Shown: positions 48,159-63,727 of the stretch, in pieces | Position numbering within the stretch: position 1 is the stretch's first letter | How the letters are laid out: each line of letters begins with the position of its first letter | Assembly (NCBI GenBank): GCA_001898935.1 | Contig: MKVT01000013.1 | Location: 62,001 to 126,000 of the forward strand | Reading direction: 5' to 3' | From: Paludibacter sp. 47-17 | GTDB taxonomy: Bacteria; Bacteroidota; Bacteroidia; Bacteroidales; Paludibacteraceae | DNA length: 64,000 nt | Translations under genes and position numbers: made by a program | The notes under the pieces: model-generated | Told to the model about the DNA's origin: nothing | The model's database searches: none | What the model saw: the letters and a program-made list of their open reading frames with translations, nothing else

Positions 48159-48884
48159 TTAACACATAAACTCCTCCGCTTCTTTCAGGGTTTCAATTTT
48201 CCCTACATCCATCATCCGGTAGTTTTCCTGCATGTATCCTATACAGGTGTTTGCTTTCAGACTTTCGAGGTAGAAATCGGTGATCGAAAAGCGCTCGGGC
48301 CATGCGTCCATCAGGTTAAAGATCTCCGGCGAAAGCACCTGAATTCCCGAAAAGGCCAGCTTTCGATACCGGCCGGCATCTTGCAAATTTTCCGGTTTCA
48401 CCTGGCCGGTTTTCAGGTTGGTCCAGGCTCGCAGGTGCATATCATCGTCGAACAGGAAATACCGGAAGGTCTCCCGCTCGCTCACTACAAGGGTAGCCAG
48501 CGGATTGGTACGTCGGTGTTGCTCCACCAACGCTGCAATATCGAGATTGGAAAGAATATCGACATTATGAACCAGAAAAGGTTCGCCCGTATCGAGCCAG
48601 GTACGTGCCTTTCGTATTGCCCCGCCCGTTTCGAGCAATCCATCGGTTTCGTCGGAAAAATACACGGGAATACCAAACGAATGGTTTGCCTCCACATACC
48701 GGACTATTTGCCCGGGGAAATGATGTAAGTTGATCACCAGTTCGGTAATGCCACCTGCGACCAGTTTATCGATTACATGTCCGAGCAATGGTTTACCCGC
48801 CACCGGCACCAGCGCTTTGGGCATGGTATCGGTGAGTGGCTTAAGGCGTGTACCCAGCCCCGCTGCAACTATCATCGCTTTCAT
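48159..48884 (-). CDS. murU: N-acetylmuramate alpha-1-phosphate uridylyltransferase (MurU-like)
   Basis: A 241-residue sugar-1-phosphate nucleotidyltransferase. The nucleotide-binding signature is AAGLGTRLKPLTDTMPKALV, the metal and substrate region HNVDILSNLD, and GGAIRKA lies between them. On its own it could be called a mannose-1-phosphate guanylyltransferase. The 4-bp overlap (ATGA) with an AmgK-like kinase gene makes MurU the best call: in the AmgK-MurU bypass, MurU turns MurNAc-1-phosphate plus UTP into UDP-MurNAc, recycling peptidoglycan sugar and evading fosfomycin. The size matches characterised MurU (~220-240 residues). Confidence 0.82.
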   Translation of the reverse strand: MKAMIVAAGLGTRLKPLTDTMPKALVPVAGKPLLGHVIDKLVAGGITELVINLHHFPGQIVRYVEANHSFGIPVYFSDETDGLLETGGAIRKARTWLDTGEPFLVHNVDILSNLDIAALVEQHRRTNPLATLVVSERETFRYFLFDDDMHLRAWTNLKTGQVKPENLQDAGRYRKLAFSGIQVLSPEIFNLMDAWPERFSITDFYLESLKANTCIGYMQENYRMMDVGKIETLKEAEEFMC

Positions 48885-50377
48885 TCGGTTTCCTTTTGTC
48901 GGTGGATAGCTCCGAAAACTTCTTCCTTATTTTGCTCCCGGTGGATAAGGTGTACCTCCACCCCGAATTCCCGGTTGATATGTTCGGCCATTTTTTGCGC
49001 CGAATATACCGAACGATGTTGTCCGCCCGTGCAACCGAAGCTCACCATCAGGTTGGTGAATCCGCGGTCTTTATAGCGCTTTACCGAGGCATCCACCATC
49101 GCGTAGGCCTGGTCGAGCAAGCTCAGGATTTCACCGTCTTCTTCCAGAAATTGAATCACCGATTCGTCGAGCCCCGTGAAATGAGCATACCGTTCGTATT
49201 TCCCGGGATTATTGACCGCGCGACAATCGAATACAAATCCTCCTCCATTTCCCGAATCATCGTGCGGGATCCCTTTTTTATACGAAAAGCTGTAAACCTT
49301 TACGATGAGCGGTTTGCGCACCGCCACCTCGCGGTATTGTTTCAACTCACACATTTCACGGAGTACCTTCACGAGGTAGGGATAACCCGGAAGCTCGTCG
49401 CGCAAAATGACGCGCAGATTCTCCATGGCATACGGAATACTTTGCAAAAAGTGCGGTTTCTTCTCGAAATACCCTCTGAAACCATACGCACCCAGGACCT
49501 GCAAGGTGCGGAAGAGGACGAAATGCCGCAGCTGCTCGCGAAAGTTTTCGGGGCGGGCCACCAGTGCAAGGTTCCCGAGCGACGAGGGGGCGATGTCGGT
49601 GGTATTTTTTACCCCTTCCATTACTTCGGCCAGCGATTCGAGGTACACCGTCAGTAATTCATCACGTAGTTCCTCGCTGTATTTCGCCTTAGCCTGCCAC
49701 AGGAACGAAGCTACATCATAATGCAGCGGCCCCTTTCTTCCACCCTGGAAATCAATAAAGTAAGGTTTATCGTTATGAATCATTACATTCCGGCTCTGAA
49801 AATCGCGGTACATAAAGGTGTCGGTCTGCGAGCGCAACAGGATAGCTGCCAGTCGTTGAAAATCGTCCTCCAGACGATCCTCCTGAAAATCGATGCCCGA
49901 AGCTTTCAGGAAATTGTATTTGAAATAATTGAGGTCCCAAAACACCGACCGTTCGTTGAACGCAGGTTGCGGGTAGCACACCGAAAAATCGAAATCCCGT
50001 GCGCCATTCACCTGAATAAGAGGCAACAATCGCATGGTTTCGCGCAGCATTTCCTTTTCTGTTTCATGAAAAACACCGGTTTTACGCCCTTCGGCTATAA
50101 AATCGAACAGCAGGGTATTGCCCAGGTCTTCCTGGAGATAGAAGCGGCCGTCGTGCGAACGCACCAAGACGCGGGGAACAGGCAGAGCTTTCGCAGCGAA
50201 ATGAGCCGACATGGCCATAAAAGCAGCATTTTCTTCGATCGAAGTACCCTCGACTCCGATTAAAGAGTATCCTTCGGCCGTCAAACGGAAATAGCGCCGG
50301 TTGGACCCCGACGCCGATAATTCCGTTTTAGTATCGGGCTTCAGGCCTGTTATTTGTTGAAAAAGCGATTCAAGCAT
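48881..50377 (-). CDS. amgK: AmgK-like amino-sugar kinase fused to a RapZ C-terminal domain
   Basis: A 498-residue two-domain protein. Residues 1-~335 are an aminoglycoside-phosphotransferase-fold kinase: catalytic Asp192 in YRDFQSRNVM and metal-binding Asp209 in FIDFQGG, as in AmgK (MurNAc/GlcNAc anomeric kinase). Residues ~353-492 match the C-terminal domain of the RNA-binding regulator RapZ: SFSYKKGIPHDD, VFDCRAVNNP, GLDESVIQFL and FGCTGGQHRSVYSAQ. In E. coli RapZ this domain binds glucosamine-6-phosphate and small RNAs; here it replaces the N-terminal kinase domain by a different kinase. It is coupled to murU by a 4-bp overlap and follows pulA by 9 bp. A metabolite-sensing role for the RapZ part is inferred. 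Confidence 0.85.
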   Translation of the reverse strand: MLESLFQQITGLKPDTKTELSASGSNRRYFRLTAEGYSLIGVEGTSIEENAAFMAMSAHFAAKALPVPRVLVRSHDGRFYLQEDLGNTLLFDFIAEGRKTGVFHETEKEMLRETMRLLPLIQVNGARDFDFSVCYPQPAFNERSVFWDLNYFKYNFLKASGIDFQEDRLEDDFQRLAAILLRSQTDTFMYRDFQSRNVMIHNDKPYFIDFQGGRKGPLHYDVASFLWQAKAKYSEELRDELLTVYLESLAEVMEGVKNTTDIAPSSLGNLALVARPENFREQLRHFVLFRTLQVLGAYGFRGYFEKKPHFLQSIPYAMENLRVILRDELPGYPYLVKVLREMCELKQYREVAVRKPLIVKVYSFSYKKGIPHDDSGNGGGFVFDCRAVNNPGKYERYAHFTGLDESVIQFLEEDGEILSLLDQAYAMVDASVKRYKDRGFTNLMVSFGCTGGQHRSVYSAQKMAEHINREFGVEVHLIHREQNKEEVFGAIHRQKETE

Positions 50378-52711: not shown

Positions 52712-54196
52712 TTATTTGATCACCACATTTTTCACCTCCCAGGTAGCAGCAGTAGCGGTGGTACTAACATATTTAAACGCAATCCGTACTTTCGGTTCGC
52801 CGGCAAAATCGTCGAGCGAAACAGCGCCCGATCCGACAAAGGTCCAGTTGGTTCCCGGCGGATAAACAGGAACACTTAACTGCGACCAGGCTGCCGTCGA
52901 AGGAGCACCGGAAGAATAAGTGGTCGACAGCCACACGGTTACAAAATCGGCAGCCTTAGCGCCGCGCAGGTAATTCAGTGCATGTTCGAATGTCATGGAT
53001 ACGGTCGACACATCAGCCAGGCTTATTTCCGGCGATATCAACCAGCTTTCGGTGGCTTTATTGCTACCGCCTACAAAGGCCGACGCCACCATACCATAGC
53101 TGGGCGAGGTAGTCCATACATAATTCACACCCGACGGAATAACCACATTTTGAATGGTAAAGGCTCCCTGACTATTGTTGGCAAAGCTTTCGCTGAAAAT
53201 AGTCTTTACCGGCTTTGTTCCGCCGGAGGTACCATTTTCGAGGGCATAGTAGGAAGTGCTCCGCATTCCGGGCGCTCCGAAGTAAGCTTCGAGCGATCCG
53301 GCAAGCGTTACTCTTTTGCCGAGCAGCGATTTATTATCCTTCAGGTTGATACCGGTGCGCACGGCTCCGGCAGGCAACTGAATAGCCATTGTTTTGGAAA
53401 GATACGTACCCACCGTATCGGCAATCAGGATATTGGTCGCCTGCGTACAGGTGTCGGAACCAAAAACGTAGTTGGTAAAGCTTCCCGACCAGACATAACC
53501 CACGATGATACCGGTCACCCAGTTCTCGCCGGTTTGGTTGGCAATTGCTCCTGCCACGGTATACGGTTCGGCCTCGGTACCTTTGCCCCAGTTACGTTCC
53601 ACGACCACTGCCTCGCCTTTGCGGACCAGGAAGTTTTTCAACTCCCACGAACCGGCTTTAGCCGTAGTCGATATGTATTTGAAACCGATGCGGATCTTTT
53701 TTCCCGCAAATGCCGTTAAACTAATCTCACCCGACGTGCCGAAAGTCCACGACCCGGGATCGGTAAAGGGCTCGGTAACCAGCTGGGTCCAGGCAGCAAC
53801 GGCCGGACTCTGATCGTCGACAAAATTTTCGGACACCCAAACCGTAGCCTCCGTTGCAGGGTTGGCAAAATAACGCACTACATGGTCGAAGGTAAGCCTT
53901 GCTGTTTCAACGGCGGTAAGATCAATTTCGGGGGAAATCAACCAGGCCTCGTTGGCTTTATTGGCATTTTCGACATAGCCCGAAACATAGGCGTAACCAT
54001 TGGAGTCGAAATGCCACATTTCGTCGCCCGATACATTTACGGCTTTAAAATCGCCCAGGTTATCGGTGAGCGTTGCCGAAAAAATCAGTTCCGATTCTTC
54101 ATCGATTTTCACATGCGAATCGTCGAGATTGGAACAACCAACCAGCCAGAGGCTTAGAAAAAGCACGGAATATGTTTTAAATTTTCTGATATACAT
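52712..54196 (-). CDS. Surface lipoprotein with two anchor-J-like domains flanking DUF6359
   Basis: A 494-residue lipoprotein (lipobox LVGC). Two similar beta-rich modules flank a central ~130-residue part. Module one includes WLISPEIDLTAVETARLTF and IRIGFKYISTTAKAGSWEL; module two includes WLISPEISLADVSTVSMTF and VRIAFKYVSTTATAATWEV: an internal duplication of choice-of-anchor-J-type domains. The middle part (GTEAEPYTVAGAIANQTGENW, then VTGIIVGYVWSGSFT) has the pattern of DUF6359, a small OB-like barrel. It is the last gene of the TonB-receptor operon (24 bp after the DUF5689 gene) and is likely exposed on the cell surface, binding the ligand taken up by the receptor (inference). Confidence 0.82.
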   Translation of the reverse strand: MYIRKFKTYSVLFLSLWLVGCSNLDDSHVKIDEESELIFSATLTDNLGDFKAVNVSGDEMWHFDSNGYAYVSGYVENANKANEAWLISPEIDLTAVETARLTFDHVVRYFANPATEATVWVSENFVDDQSPAVAAWTQLVTEPFTDPGSWTFGTSGEISLTAFAGKKIRIGFKYISTTAKAGSWELKNFLVRKGEAVVVERNWGKGTEAEPYTVAGAIANQTGENWVTGIIVGYVWSGSFTNYVFGSDTCTQATNILIADTVGTYLSKTMAIQLPAGAVRTGINLKDNKSLLGKRVTLAGSLEAYFGAPGMRSTSYYALENGTSGGTKPVKTIFSESFANNSQGAFTIQNVVIPSGVNYVWTTSPSYGMVASAFVGGSNKATESWLISPEISLADVSTVSMTFEHALNYLRGAKAADFVTVWLSTTYSSGAPSTAAWSQLSVPVYPPGTNWTFVGSGAVSLDDFAGEPKVRIAFKYVSTTATAATWEVKNVVIK

Positions 54197-54220
54197 AGTA
54201 GCTGTATTTATTGCTGATGA

Positions 54221-55195
54221 TTAGTTAAGCGATTGACGGTAGGCTTCGAATCCCTTGCCCAGGTCGTTGAGCGACCGGATGGTAAGCTGATGATAAATAC
54301 TGGATGCGACAGGGCTCAGGTCGCGGTCGTTGTACCAACCAACGATAGCGGTGATATGGCCCCGGTGGTTGGACGTAGGTATCGGCTTGGTAGCAAACTT
54401 GGCATATTCGCTGGTCGACACGAATACCGACCCCGTACCATCCTGGATTTCGCGCGACTGCGGATAACCAATACCGTTGGTGGAGGGTGCAAAAATGAGT
54501 TCGGCATCGGTGAGACGAACCGGACGTTTTTGCGAGCTCGAACCATTACCGGTGAAAAACGCATTTTTAATGACTACCAGTTTGTTGATCATTTCATGAC
54601 CACTGGTACGAATTTGTGCGATCGTCATCGTGTCGGGCCGGATAGCCGAAGGATCGGGCATACCATAAGGAATGATGTGTTTACGGGCCATCAGCTTAGG
54701 CATACGGCCCGGTTCGATCCTGTTGCGTTCAGAATTCATATAAAAAACTCCCATTTGCACCGACTGAGCGTACTGACCGATATACAAGTCATTACATACA
54801 ACGGACACCCTTTGTCCCAGCGGAAACATCGCCGACAAACCACTTACATCAACAGAAAGTTTAATGGCCTGACCTCCTGGCATTTCTTCCTGAATAGTAA
54901 GGTACTTATACACATTCCCTTCCACATCGGTACTCGTAACGATCCCATTGATAACTATATCGGTGATCGTAGTATCTATCCGGCTTTTTGTAGCACTATC
55001 CAATGCTGCGTATGAGATCTTATTGGCAGAGAATAAAGATTCATCTGTGATGAACACTTTCTTCAATCGTGCTATCGAATAAGTTGAATCGATTTTTTCT
55101 CCCAGCAAACCCGACACATCCATCGGTTCAAACTCCACTTGGTTACAGGCAACCAGCGAAACCAAAAGGAACAGCGGAACTATCTTCTTTATCAT
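54221..55195 (-). CDS. DUF5689 surface lipoprotein
   Basis: A 324-residue lipoprotein from ATG 55195 (MIKKIVPLFLLVSLVAC, lipobox LVAC, Cys17). The Bacteroidota DUF5689 region covers roughly residues 60-300, with VINGIVTSTDVEGNVYKYLTIQE and IKLSVDVSGLSAMFPLGQRV, an OB-fold-like pattern, and a second barrel-like part (KLVVIKNAFF to VFVSTSEYA). Upstream in-frame ATGs would place extra residues before the signal, and the earliest (55264) would overlap the receptor gene, so 55195 is preferred; ATG 55207 is possible. Between receptor and second lipoprotein, it occupies the SusD-like position, but no SusD/RagB motif is seen. It probably serves as the surface partner of the receptor. Confidence 0.8.
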   Translation of the reverse strand: MIKKIVPLFLLVSLVACNQVEFEPMDVSGLLGEKIDSTYSIARLKKVFITDESLFSANKISYAALDSATKSRIDTTITDIVINGIVTSTDVEGNVYKYLTIQEEMPGGQAIKLSVDVSGLSAMFPLGQRVSVVCNDLYIGQYAQSVQMGVFYMNSERNRIEPGRMPKLMARKHIIPYGMPDPSAIRPDTMTIAQIRTSGHEMINKLVVIKNAFFTGNGSSSQKRPVRLTDAELIFAPSTNGIGYPQSREIQDGTGSVFVSTSEYAKFATKPIPTSNHRGHITAIVGWYNDRDLSPVASSIYHQLTIRSLNDLGKGFEAYRQSLN

Positions 55196-55221
55196 ATCAT
55201 TTATCATTATTACATTTATCA

Positions 55222-57945
55222 CTAAAACCGGTAACCTATGTTGAGGAACATATTGAATCCCCATGCATAATAATATTTATTGGGAAAACGATTCAGGTTC
55301 CCTGCATCGATGGCACCATCCACCAGAGGCAAACGAGCCTGCTGGAAACCACCTGTAATCATTTTCTGATTGTTGAGGATATTACTCATACTCAGGTTCA
55401 CGTTGAGCGACCGGCGTTGTGGCAGGTAAATAAGTTTACCTATCGAAGCATCGAGCAGGAAGCCCCCCTGGAGTCGTTCCTGTGTTCCCAGCGCATCGAT
55501 CATTTGCTGAGTAGTATATTTCATACGATTGTCCTCGGTAAAGCGGTTGGGTGCAAAATCGAGGTAGTTCTTGTCGAAATAGTTCAGAGTGATATCGGCA
55601 AACCACATTTTAGGGTGGAAATAGTCGAGCGTGATATTGGCGGCCAGTTGCGGACCGTTGGACAGATACAGACCTTTGGTCATAACGGTTTCGTACACAT
55701 CGGCAAACGAGCCGTTCTCGGGACTCTTGATACCCATAGCGTTGTTGGTGTAGGTATAGTCGGCCAGGGTTCCGGCCATCGATACGGTAAAGCTGGTATT
55801 CAACACAACCGAAAGTCCTGCCTCCACTCCCATATAGCGTTTATTGGCCTGAGTGAGTGTGTGGTTGATAAAGGTGCGGTACTCGTCGTCGTAATAGCCC
55901 AACATATCGACCGCATTCATGATTTCGGTATGGAAACCCGAGATTCGTCCGCGAACGCCGGGGAAAGTAAAGGCGTAACCGGCATCGAAGCTGGTGATTT
56001 CCTCGGGACGCATGGGGATGGCCGAATCTTTAATACGTTGCGACACATACGAATTGGTCGATAAGGGCGCACGGCTCTCGCGCATGGCGTTGACCATAAT
56101 ACGGTTGCGTCCGTCGAATTTGTAGGTCAATCCTCCTTTGATGGAAGGATCGAGCGACCACCATGTTTTTCCTTTTCCGTACGACTGTGCACCTACTGCT
56201 ACTGCGCGGCCGTTCTCCATATGACCAAAACGATAGAATTCGGTATAAGTCATTTTGGCGGCATAATGTACTTCCAGGCGGTCGAAATTCCATTCGTTCT
56301 GGATAAATACATTGGCATGCGTCAGGTTGATGTCGTAATTGTATCCGAAAATATCGCCTTCGCGGATGATGCGGTTCGGATTACGTACATCGTTCTGGAT
56401 GATGTTGGGATTGGTAGGGAAATCGCGTTCGGCAAACTGGTCGATATCCACCCATTGGCCGGCACCCAGCAAGTCTTCCATGGTTTTGTAGTGCATCCCT
56501 TTCGACTTTTTGAATTCCACACCGGCTGTAAGACGGAACTTCTTTGAAATTTCGTTGGTAAATGTAGAGTTGAAAGCCAGTTCGGATAAGTTATTGTGCC
56601 GGCGTTCGACTGCATACTTGGCGTTACCGTCTTTGTTTTTTGCATTTTCGAGGTACAATTCGGCCCAATCGATCTGACGGATGGAAGGATTGTTTTGCCA
56701 TTCGCCGGCAATGTATTTGCCCGCTTCGGTATCGGCTCCCCAGAAACTCGGCAGCTCCCGGTAATAGTCGGGACGCGGATCGGGAGCATTATAGAAGGTA
56801 AGCGCCGAATTGCTGTAGAGGCTGTAATGGTAAGCCAGCCCGGTGCGCAGGCGTTTCTGATCGTCGATTTTAAAATCGTGTGACAAAATCACCGTGGGGT
56901 CGAAACTTTTCACGATACGTGAATTCCGTTTCTTTCCATCCTGGTAACCCCAATACGAGTTATAATAAATCGATCCGGCCAGGTCGTACACTTCCTGCGT
57001 GGTGGCACTACCCTGAGCGCGCTGGGTAGGAGCGCCGAAGGTTACCAGGCTCAGGCTGTGTTTGGGATTAAACACTTTTTCGGCCGAAAGAAAATATCCT
57101 CCTGAATTGTAGAACGTTCCGTCCACAATCCCTTCGTTGGCCCAACGTACGACCCCCGAAGCCGTAAAGGCCCATCCGTCGGGACGTAAACCGGTGGCGT
57201 AGGTAGCTTGTGCACGGTACCGGTAAGCGCGGTTGGTAAAGGCAATACTGCTGCGTACGCCTGCTGCATAGGCCGATGCACGGGTATTGATATTGCTCAC
57301 GCCCCCCAGGTTACCGAACGAAAACGAAGAGGATTGCAACCCGTATACATTTTCGCGGTTACGCATGGCATCGTTCAAACCGCCCAGAGCCGAATAATTA
57401 AAACCGCCCCGTTCGAGCGAATTGAAATGAACGCCGTTGATATAGGTGGTTTCGTAGTTGTTGTCGTACCCCCTCATGCGGAAGCGCATCGGCGAAAACG
57501 AGAAGCTGGCCTGCGAGATGTATACATCGCGATTGGATAAAGTGGTGGAAATATTCTGATCGCGCCCGTCGTCGTCGGTATTCAGACTCATTTCGCTGAG
57601 CTGAAGCACAATTTCCTGCTTTACTTCGGTGTTGATATCGATGCGCAGCGCCACATCGGGAATCACATTGACCGATGTCGCGCTCAGCTGATACTCGCGA
57701 ATTTGCGTGAAATACCCGTTCTTGACAAAACGGATTTCGACCAGTCCCGGCGCCGAAGCCTCCAGGGTAAATTCACCCGATCCGTTTGTCAAGGCTGTGA
57801 TATCCTGTTGCATAAGGGTAACAGAGACACCTGGCAGTGGCTGTTGAGAATCGGACGACACCACCTTCCCACGCACCATCACTTGTGCATGGATCGTCCC
57901 CATCAGGCCTAAAATGCTTAAAAATAGAATAAAAATTCGTCTCAT
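55222..57945 (-). CDS. TonB-dependent outer-membrane receptor
   Basis: A 907-residue outer-membrane protein. Signal peptide (MRRIFILFLSILGLMGTIHA), then a carboxypeptidase-regulatory-like domain (about 22-105, VRGKVVSSDSQQPLPGVSV), then a plug (~130-220, RFRMRGYDNNYETTYINGV), and a beta-barrel ending in the C-terminal aromatic YRF. The protein lacks the long SusC extension, and no SusD partner follows. It imports a substrate by TonB energy; what it takes up is unknown. It heads a three-gene operon with DUF5689 and DUF6359 lipoproteins and diverges from an EEP-family lipoprotein nuclease/phosphatase gene. A palindrome sits just upstream of its start. Confidence 0.9.
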   Translation of the reverse strand: MRRIFILFLSILGLMGTIHAQVMVRGKVVSSDSQQPLPGVSVTLMQQDITALTNGSGEFTLEASAPGLVEIRFVKNGYFTQIREYQLSATSVNVIPDVALRIDINTEVKQEIVLQLSEMSLNTDDDGRDQNISTTLSNRDVYISQASFSFSPMRFRMRGYDNNYETTYINGVHFNSLERGGFNYSALGGLNDAMRNRENVYGLQSSSFSFGNLGGVSNINTRASAYAAGVRSSIAFTNRAYRYRAQATYATGLRPDGWAFTASGVVRWANEGIVDGTFYNSGGYFLSAEKVFNPKHSLSLVTFGAPTQRAQGSATTQEVYDLAGSIYYNSYWGYQDGKKRNSRIVKSFDPTVILSHDFKIDDQKRLRTGLAYHYSLYSNSALTFYNAPDPRPDYYRELPSFWGADTEAGKYIAGEWQNNPSIRQIDWAELYLENAKNKDGNAKYAVERRHNNLSELAFNSTFTNEISKKFRLTAGVEFKKSKGMHYKTMEDLLGAGQWVDIDQFAERDFPTNPNIIQNDVRNPNRIIREGDIFGYNYDINLTHANVFIQNEWNFDRLEVHYAAKMTYTEFYRFGHMENGRAVAVGAQSYGKGKTWWSLDPSIKGGLTYKFDGRNRIMVNAMRESRAPLSTNSYVSQRIKDSAIPMRPEEITSFDAGYAFTFPGVRGRISGFHTEIMNAVDMLGYYDDEYRTFINHTLTQANKRYMGVEAGLSVVLNTSFTVSMAGTLADYTYTNNAMGIKSPENGSFADVYETVMTKGLYLSNGPQLAANITLDYFHPKMWFADITLNYFDKNYLDFAPNRFTEDNRMKYTTQQMIDALGTQERLQGGFLLDASIGKLIYLPQRRSLNVNLSMSNILNNQKMITGGFQQARLPLVDGAIDAGNLNRFPNKYYYAWGFNMFLNIGYRF

Positions 57946-57961
57946 AAATTTTTAGTGTGCT

Positions 57962-57982
57962 GACATTAAACACGTTAATGTC
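57962..57982. repeat. Palindromic element upstream of the TonB receptor
   Basis: GACATTAA (57962-57969) and TTAATGTC (57975-57982) form a perfect 8-bp dyad with the 5-base spacer ACACG, 16 bp before the receptor start. It could be an operator or a hairpin in the leader. A related ATTAATGTTC follows 9 bp later. Confidence 0.5.
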
Positions 57983-58075
57983 GATTATCAATTAATGTTC
58001 ATTTTTAAAAAGGGGATGCAAGATACAACATTTTTTGAAATCAGCCAAAAGAATCGGACCCACCTAAAATGAGAT

Positions 58076-58106
58076 TTTGTATTTCGAAGTTTTTTTCCCA
58101 ATTTTG
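58076..58106 (+). promoter_or_regulatory. Promoter for the EEP lipoprotein gene
   Basis: TTTG (58076-58079) and CAATTTTG (58099-58106) are 19 bp apart, close to the Bacteroidota TTTG / TAnnTTTG arrangement, with one mismatch (CA for TA) in the -7 box. It lies 22 bp before the start codon. Confidence 0.45.
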
Positions 58107-58128
58107 CAGACCATATTAAAATGAAACA

Positions 58129-59181
58129 ATGAAAAAACTTGTTCCTATTCTTTTTACAGCCCTTATTTTCATGGTTGGCTGTTCGTCGGGCAAAATCGAA
58201 AAAGCACCTCCCGTCAACGTATCGGTCAGTCCCGTAGCTTTCTACAATCTTGAAAACCTGTTCGACACGATCGATCAGCCCAATGTAAACGACATCGAAT
58301 TCACACCTCAGGGTTCGATGAAGTGGGGAACGATGAAATACATGGCCAAACTCGAGCGGATGTCGTACGCCCTGTCGCAGATCGCCCTCGATCATTCGCC
58401 CGTAGGCGCCGTCATAATTGGGGTCAGCGAGCTGGAAAACCGGGGAGTGCTCGAAGATCTGGTAAAGCAGCCCGCCATCCGGAACCGTTCGTACGAAATT
58501 GTTCACTACGACGGTCCCGACCGCCGTGGTGTGGACGTAGCCTTGCTTTACAATCCCAAATATTTTATCGTCACCAACAGTAAATCGTACCGGCTTCAAA
58601 GCCCCGACACCGCTTTCCGCACCCGCGACCAGCTCATGGTGAGCGGATACCTGCAGGACGAGAAAGTACACATTATAGTGAACCACTGGCCCTCGCGTTC
58701 GGGCGGCGAATTGCGTTCGCGCCCAAAACGCAACGAAGCGGCAGCGCTCACCCGTTCGATTGTCGATTCGTTGTTTCGAATCGAACCCAAAGCCCGCATC
58801 ATTGTGATGGGCGACCTCAACGACGACCCGCACAACGAAAGTGTTGCCACCATATTGGGAGCCAAAGAAAACAAAGAAGAAGTGAAACCCGGAGAACTCT
58901 ACAATGTGTTCTGGAAAACACACCGTCGCGGTATCGGATCGCTGGCCTACAACGACCAGTGGAATATGTTCGACCAGATCATCCTTTCGCACGAATTGGT
59001 GAATCCGGGCGACAAAAAACTGTATTTATGGAAAAGCGAAATATTCAACCGTGCCTTCCTCATACAACAGGAAGGAGCTTACAAAGGCACCCCTCTGCGT
59101 ACGCATGCAGGAGGAGTCTGGCTCAACGGTTATTCCGACCACTTTCCAACCATCGTATATTTAATCAAAGCGTTGAAATAA
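58129..59181 (+). CDS. Endonuclease/exonuclease/phosphatase-family lipoprotein
   Basis: A 350-residue predicted lipoprotein (lipobox MVGC) with the EEP catalytic fold. The metal and catalytic residues expected for the family are visible in order: FYNLENLFDT, GVSELENRGV, YDGPDRRGVDVALLY, VNHWPSR, MGDLNDDP and GYSDHFP. Family members hydrolyse phosphodiester bonds of nucleic acids, inositol phosphates or sphingomyelin. It is divergent from the TonB receptor operon, with 183 bp between, which suggests that it works on the same extracellular ligand, perhaps cutting it for uptake (inference). It precedes DUF4290 by 16 bp, so it may also read into the murA operon. Confidence 0.88.
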   Translation: MKKLVPILFTALIFMVGCSSGKIEKAPPVNVSVSPVAFYNLENLFDTIDQPNVNDIEFTPQGSMKWGTMKYMAKLERMSYALSQIALDHSPVGAVIIGVSELENRGVLEDLVKQPAIRNRSYEIVHYDGPDRRGVDVALLYNPKYFIVTNSKSYRLQSPDTAFRTRDQLMVSGYLQDEKVHIIVNHWPSRSGGELRSRPKRNEAAALTRSIVDSLFRIEPKARIIVMGDLNDDPHNESVATILGAKENKEEVKPGELYNVFWKTHRRGIGSLAYNDQWNMFDQIILSHELVNPGDKKLYLWKSEIFNRAFLIQQEGAYKGTPLRTHAGGVWLNGYSDHFPTIVYLIKALK

Positions 59182-63181: not shown

Positions 63182-63727
63182 TTAATAATTCTTTTGTATC
63201 TTGATTTTCAAATCGTAGCCGATCGGGGTAGCCGGACGATTAAACTGAGTGAAGCCAATACGTGAAAAAACAAGGATACTTGCTTCCGAATTGTGGCGTT
63301 TCATATACCCTACCGCCTCGTGCCAGCCCACACAAGCCTGAGTGAAGTCGAGGTAATTGAATTTGGAGGGATACTCAAAATCGGTCGTCGACAAATTAAA
63401 AAGCGTATCGGGCTTTGCGGTAAGCGTATATTGGATATAACGGGGAACAATCAGGTCGCCCGACTCGACCGTATCGTTGCTTTGTGTATCGCCTGCATTG
63501 GTAAGCCGGAAATACAATCCCGAAGGACTTTTATAAAACACCTTGGCAGGCCAGGGCTGCGAGGGCATCGTAGTAACCACCGAAATACCGTTGCGTTTTA
63601 TAAAATCGGAAATGATCTTTTGCTCGGCAGCCAGTTCTTCGGCATAGGTTACATTATCGTCCTTACACGAACTAAGTACGAAACCCGCGAGCAAAACAGA
63701 AAAAAGAAAAATAACTAAAGACTTCAT
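63182..63727 (-). CDS. DUF4827 lipoprotein
   Basis: A 181-residue predicted lipoprotein with lipobox LSSC and KDDNVTYAEELAAEQK following the Cys. The rest resembles DUF4827, a Bacteroidota family with an FKBP-like outline: YFRLTNAGDTQSNDTVESGD, YIQYTLTAKPDTLFN and QACVGWHEAVGYMKR. FKBP-fold proteins can act as prolyl isomerases, but catalytic residues are not recognisable here. It lies between thrA (11 bp) and glmM (13 bp), so the three are one operon. Function is unknown. Confidence 0.82.
   Translation of the reverse strand: MKSLVIFLFSVLLAGFVLSSCKDDNVTYAEELAAEQKIISDFIKRNGISVVTTMPSQPWPAKVFYKSPSGLYFRLTNAGDTQSNDTVESGDLIVPRYIQYTLTAKPDTLFNLSTTDFEYPSKFNYLDFTQACVGWHEAVGYMKRHNSEASILVFSRIGFTQFNRPATPIGYDLKIKIQKNY

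Follow-up and report, generated by a model that had tools for sequence, protein, structure and literature searches.

What does an outer-membrane receptor of the TonB type import when no SusD partner stands beside it? The question is raised by a four-gene locus of Paludibacter sp. 47-17 lying in a 64,000-nucleotide stretch (contig MKVT01000013.1, positions 62,001 to 126,000), the whole of which is called the window here. The receptor gene (55222..57945, minus strand) encodes 907 residues with a signal peptide, an N-terminal CarboxypepD_reg domain and, presumably, a divergent plug and barrel. Downstream of it, on the same strand, are the genes of two surface-type lipoproteins: first that of a DUF5689 protein (54221 to about 55195; DUF5689, 2.8e-39; lipobox LVAC, then NQVEFE), whose open reading frame is open up to 55264 and whose start near 55195 is placed by its signal peptide, and then that of a protein with the order anchor-J, DUF6359, anchor-J (52712..54196; DUF6359, 2.4e-27; choice_anch_J in two stretches; lipobox LVGC, then SNLDDS). 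Divergent from the receptor is a gene for a secreted phosphodiesterase of the endonuclease/exonuclease/phosphatase (EEP) family (58129..59181, plus strand; PF19580, 2.5e-127), which in this genome is a lipoprotein. The original prediction, made from the sequence alone, had seen here an undescribed scavenging system for DNA, RNA, a phosphorylated glycan or a phospholipid headgroup; domain scans confirmed its gene content and order, and they named no SusD among the locus proteins, as it had said. We are nearly certain that the locus is genuine and conserved and that it has its ortholog in one genetically proven to act in natural transformation, and it is probably the outer-membrane DNA-import module of natural transformation in the window organism.

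Orthology with a transformation locus of Riemerella anatipestifer

The R. anatipestifer genome was located by the comEC primer printed in PMC8383284. The best match of the window receptor there was full-length (E value of 1.6e-96, 29% identity; second best, 6.6e-21), and the Riemerella receptor in turn returned the window receptor (1.8e-99) as its sole match in the window genome at an E value of 0.001 or less. The order on the Riemerella contig is recA, dinB, sdh (these three named by eye), comEC (named by Pfam), a carboxyltransferase gene, the EEP gene and then, divergently, the receptor gene and that of a lipoprotein with DUF5689 and an anchor domain, the EEP gene and one other gene separating the receptor from comEC. 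Since the domains, the DUF5689 neighbor, the place near comEC and the gene numbers of the published screen all fit, we take the EEP, receptor and lipoprotein genes to be RS04910, RS04915 and RS04920, respectively.

Markerless deletion of either RA0C_RS04915, which encodes an outer-membrane barrel, or RA0C_RS04920, which encodes the lipoprotein with DUF5689 and the anchor, brought transformation of R. anatipestifer below detection, as did insertions in comEC, dprA and recA; the fourth essential transformation gene of that study is of the DUF1343 family (PMC8459023). Its authors suggested RS04920 as the DNA binder and RS04915 as the passage for it, and the sections of the paper used here give no role to the EEP. 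Deletion of tonBA or tonBB also lowered transformation, in the case of tonBA without a defect in iron acquisition, an effect for which the authors speculated on nutrient transport (PMC8383284); it is what a TonB-driven importer would predict. The requirement for natural transformation is established in R. anatipestifer, and by analogy the window locus would be required likewise. "Undescribed" has to be given up for this system, two of whose gene families proved essential for R. anatipestifer transformation in a 2021 study (PMC8459023), and so has "scavenging," the phenotype on record being gene transfer. Among the ligands suggested, DNA is best supported, through orthology to essential transformation genes, while RNA, glycan and phospholipid gained no specific support.

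The two loci differ in the packaging of the lipoprotein. The Riemerella protein is a full member of NF052645 (lipo_M949_1556), with 590.8 bits against a cut-off of 475, and each half of it is matched by one of the window lipoproteins, with scores (101.3 and 68.4 bits) below that cut-off, so that neither is classed as a member. Since the halves match in this way and the relative L029 has a single protein with DUF5689, DUF6359 and DUF5017/anchor, we read the window pair as the split form of one lipoprotein. In a profile comparison, the anchor domain of the DUF6359 protein matched the C terminus of the fused homologs (probability of 99.1).

The Pfam Plug and barrel models were silent on the window receptor in a profile scan, and its profile matched no barrel part of solved structures at an E value of 0.001 or less; it is related (25% identity, 6.6e-21) to a Riemerella protein that matches both Plug and barrel models. 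A lipobox was present in every aligned protein of the DUF5689 (16 of 16) and DUF6359 (14 of 14) sets, and one or more of the six residues after it is always acidic, a pattern broadly like the Bacteroidetes surface-export signal described in PMC5080379. A lipobox was called in 4 of 11 EEPs (doubtfully in L026), by a simple and rough rule that misses some, and was followed by at most one acidic residue. These signals suggest that the lipoproteins lie outside and the EEP inside.

The core of the DUF5689 protein, which the original prediction had expected to be an OB-type barrel, was modeled with low confidence as resembling the OB folds of single-stranded-DNA-binding (SSB) type. A bulk basic signature was not seen in the charge analysis of the locus proteins. 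The latter result would suit a different account of the Riemerella phenotype, namely, that something other than DNA, such as an envelope phosphodiester, is imported or remodeled by the locus, and that loss of the locus alters the cell surface and only thereby blocks transformation. EEP families do include phospholipid and inositol phosphate enzymes, and mutants in apolipoprotein N-acyltransferase and lysophospholipid acyltransferase also transformed less in the same screen (PMC8459023). However, these two envelope mutants keep measurable transformation, whereas the receptor and DUF5689 deletions fall below detection (PMC8459023), and the modeled fold, for all its low confidence, is of a DNA-binding type. 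We regard an indirect effect through the envelope as decidedly unlikely.

Distribution of the receptor and its partners

A receptor ortholog was found in 19 of 40 relatives, the window genome included (E value of 1.3e-80 or better; next, 6e-46). Twenty regions were fetched, comprising the 18 other ortholog loci, the Riemerella locus and one distant homolog (L035), and the genes in them were identified only by matches to window genes. With L035 excluded, 18 of 19 loci, all but L032, have a DUF5689-type partner immediately downstream of the receptor, and 11 have an EEP gene next to the receptor. Of the remaining eight, five are cut off there by the end of the contig, and three (L022, L028 and L032) have in that place a gene that does not match the EEP. 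One of the fetched loci, L034 (4199-11849), has the EEP, receptor and DUF5689-type genes co-directional and followed by a gene for an M3-family peptidase.

On a wider scale, the ortholog was present in 28 of 198 genomes of a set covering the phylum (at least 600 bits; next, 257), all of them in the class of the window organism, and in 50 of 197 genomes of a set covering that class, under 17 family labels, with one receptor match per genome at an E value of 1e-90 or less. PMC8459023 calls the homologs widespread in Bacteroidetes in one place and those of RS04915 restricted to Flavobacteriaceae in another. DUF5689 at an E value of 1e-20 or less was found in exactly the 50 receptor-positive genomes of the class and in none of the other 147, 18 of which have weaker matches (E value of up to 1e-8). 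In 48 of the 50 it lies on the same strand as the receptor, downstream and within 1 kb, and the remaining two genomes have it on a separate contig. On viral contigs, no relative of either DUF5689 or the receptor was confirmed.

EEPs are less exclusive, being present in all 50 receptor-positive and at least 72 of the 147 receptor-negative genomes; the Fisher tests of co-occurrence in the class set carry no correction for relatedness. Among the matches listed, where a weak EEP near a receptor may have been missed, the EEP gene is no more than 1 kb from the receptor in 33 of 50 genomes (31 divergent and 2 co-directional) and at 1 to 3.1 kb in 7, which gives 40 within 3.1 kb; in 5 it is far off on the same contig, and in 5 it is on another contig. 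The earlier claim that these genes belong together was borne out, strictly for the receptor and DUF5689 and, for the EEP, as a frequent neighbor.

These counts also bear on the idea of an ordinary receptor for glycans or other nutrients, to which the lipoproteins are accessory and the EEP is an unrelated neighbor. A CarboxypepD_reg receptor with surface lipoproteins is a layout like that of SusC/SusD, and a type I pullulanase gene (TIGR02104; 50387-52393, minus strand) adjoins the locus. Nevertheless, the pullulanase had no match among the 19 fetched homologous loci, and the SusC/SusD reading was rejected on the lack of a SusD and the single, conserved receptor copy per genome. As the orthologue is moreover essential for Riemerella transformation (PMC8459023), we consider an ordinary nutrient receptor highly improbable.

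The EEP subfamily and a proposed route to ComEC

The residues N40, E103, H186, D229, N231, D337 and H338 of the EEP, which we take to be its catalytic and metal-binding residues, are invariant in 11 aligned sequences, in keeping with the active enzyme that the original prediction had assumed. A tree was built from a selection of 61 sequences: 23 of the 33 EEPs close to a receptor (the window's included) plus the Riemerella EEP, 4 of the 7 at intermediate distance, all 10 distant ones, 13 others from receptor-positive genomes and 10 drawn from the 72 EEP-bearing genomes that lack the receptor. One branch, with a support of 100/98, splits 39 sequences from 22. The side of 39 holds the 24 close, 4 intermediate and 10 distant EEPs together with that of L092, which was first labeled a paralog but lies 4.5 kb from its own receptor, and the side of 22 holds 12 paralogs and all 10 EEPs from receptor-negative genomes. 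In this tree, the locus EEPs make up a supported subfamily distinct from the EEPs found in genomes without the receptor.

In six ComEC proteins scanned (from the window genome, Riemerella and four other receptor-positive genomes), the Competence and DUF4131 domains were present, DUF4131 just below the cut-off in one, and a Lactamase_B domain was found in none of the six at an E value of 0.01 or less, which accords with PMC6299819. In other species this domain of ComEC degrades the non-translocating strand, and in Streptococcus pneumoniae a separate nuclease, EndA, does so (PMC12455585). Since ComEC lacks Lactamase_B here and a secreted EEP is co-inherited with the uptake locus, the EEP is a natural candidate for the strand-degrading nuclease. 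As the candidate nuclease of the uptake machine, it would have DNA as its substrate and would presumably act on the periplasmic side.

The same co-inheritance of a secreted phosphodiesterase subfamily with the receptor would be expected if DNA or RNA were taken up mainly to supply phosphate and nucleosides, with the EEP as the cutting enzyme and transformation as a by-product where ComEC is present. TonB systems of Bacteroidota are mostly nutritional. Removal of phosphate does alter R. anatipestifer transformation, but downward (PMC8383284). A single receptor copy per genome, its strict co-occurrence with DUF5689 and a deletion phenotype of transformation below detection (PMC8459023) speak against a mainly nutritional role, and a scan of eight window proteins around the locus found no nucleotidase or phosphate-uptake gene. 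Such a role appears unlikely to us.

The window genome has ComEC and DprA, and no PF00437 ATPase (PilB/PilT type, of type IV pili and type II secretion systems) was found in it at an E value of 1e-10 or less. The profiles of HHH_3, DprA (193/197) and ComEC (195/197) are near-universal in the class and were set aside as a test of linkage, as they neither support nor refute it. The PF00437 ATPase was not found in 164 of 197 class genomes and is present in 9 of 50 receptor-positive versus 24 of 147 receptor-negative ones (P = 0.83). These genes are context, not proof, and do not track the receptor across genomes. An import module independent of a pilus is the best reading.

In a DNA-import module of this kind, the DUF5689 and DUF6359/anchor-J lipoproteins would capture extracellular DNA at the surface and pass it to the TonB-type barrel and so to the periplasm, where the divergently encoded EEP might trim it or degrade one strand, and ComEC without a nuclease domain would then pass single-stranded DNA to DprA and RecA. 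That the lipoproteins bind DNA, that it passes through a barrel energized by TonB and that the window organism is competent are all predictions of this scheme. The combination of TonB as the driving force and the EEP as the strand-degrading nuclease is a hypothesis that we put forward tentatively. With the same reserve we propose, as a possible general model, a TonB-energized, pilus-free importer conserved across the class, in which OB-fold lipoproteins load double-stranded DNA into the barrel and the EEP nuclease fills the gap left by ComEC. In the open-licence PMC literature, DUF5689 and RA0C_RS04920 were each found in one paper, with RA0C_RS04915 and RS04910 in the same one as RA0C_RS04920; "TonB-dependent DNA uptake" or "transport" and DUF6359 were found in none, and further work may exist elsewhere.

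Promoter region, neighboring genes and known systems

The receptor and EEP genes share a divergent promoter region (57946..58128, no strand). A promoter-like element, TATCTTGC, lies at 58018-58025 on the minus strand and is similar to a TAAATTGC element that six of nine relatives have ahead of the receptor, both being found by eye and without statistics. The same region contains an inverted repeat, GACATTA-7-TAATGTC (57962-57982), which was rejected as a regulatory dyad: 17 of 300 shuffles reach it, and none of the nine other intergenic regions has its sequence; inverted repeats of a different kind occur in four of them.

Past the EEP gene come a DUF4290 gene and a MurA-like gene (the latter named by eye), and the order EEP, DUF4290, MurA-like recurs in the relatives L021, L024, L026 and L027. 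Elsewhere in the window, an APH/AmgK-type kinase fused to a RapZ C-terminal domain (48159-50377, minus strand) adjoins a nucleotidyltransferase, the two presumably resembling a sugar-recycling pair of the AmgK/MurU type with a RapZ fusion. A DUF4827 lipoprotein (63182-63727, minus strand) shows sub-threshold similarity to the BamK (beta-barrel-assembly) family, with 74.5 bits against a cut-off of 120.

By this analysis, two DUF families, a receptor and a nuclease subfamily belong to a single conserved locus for which a genetic phenotype is already on record, and a nuclease candidate is named for bacteria mostly without a PF00437 pilus-type ATPase. If the TonB-driven scheme is true, TonB receptors import a long polymer for gene transfer.

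Its closest counterpart is the RA0C_RS04915/RS04920 locus, which shares with the window an orthologous receptor, a DUF5689 lipoprotein directly downstream, an anchor-type domain and a divergent EEP upstream. In the window, however, the lipoprotein is two genes with an added DUF6359 domain and a second anchor-J, and the EEP has a lipobox, whereas the Riemerella EEP has a signal sequence without one. SusC/SusD importers likewise have CarboxypepD_reg and surface lipoprotein partners, together with a TonB-type barrel such as is presumed here; the present locus differs in having DUF5689 and DUF6359 in place of SusD, one receptor copy per genome and orthologs tied to transformation. The EEP would resemble EndA of S. 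pneumoniae as a separate nuclease that takes over strand degradation from ComEC, but it is of the EEP superfamily (PF19580), and EndA belongs to another family. Finally, Gram-negative uptake by type IV pilus or type II secretion system-like machines also brings DNA to the periplasm and then to ComEC, DprA and RecA; in the window genome, where no PF00437 ATPase was found, the barrel would replace the pilus and the secretin.

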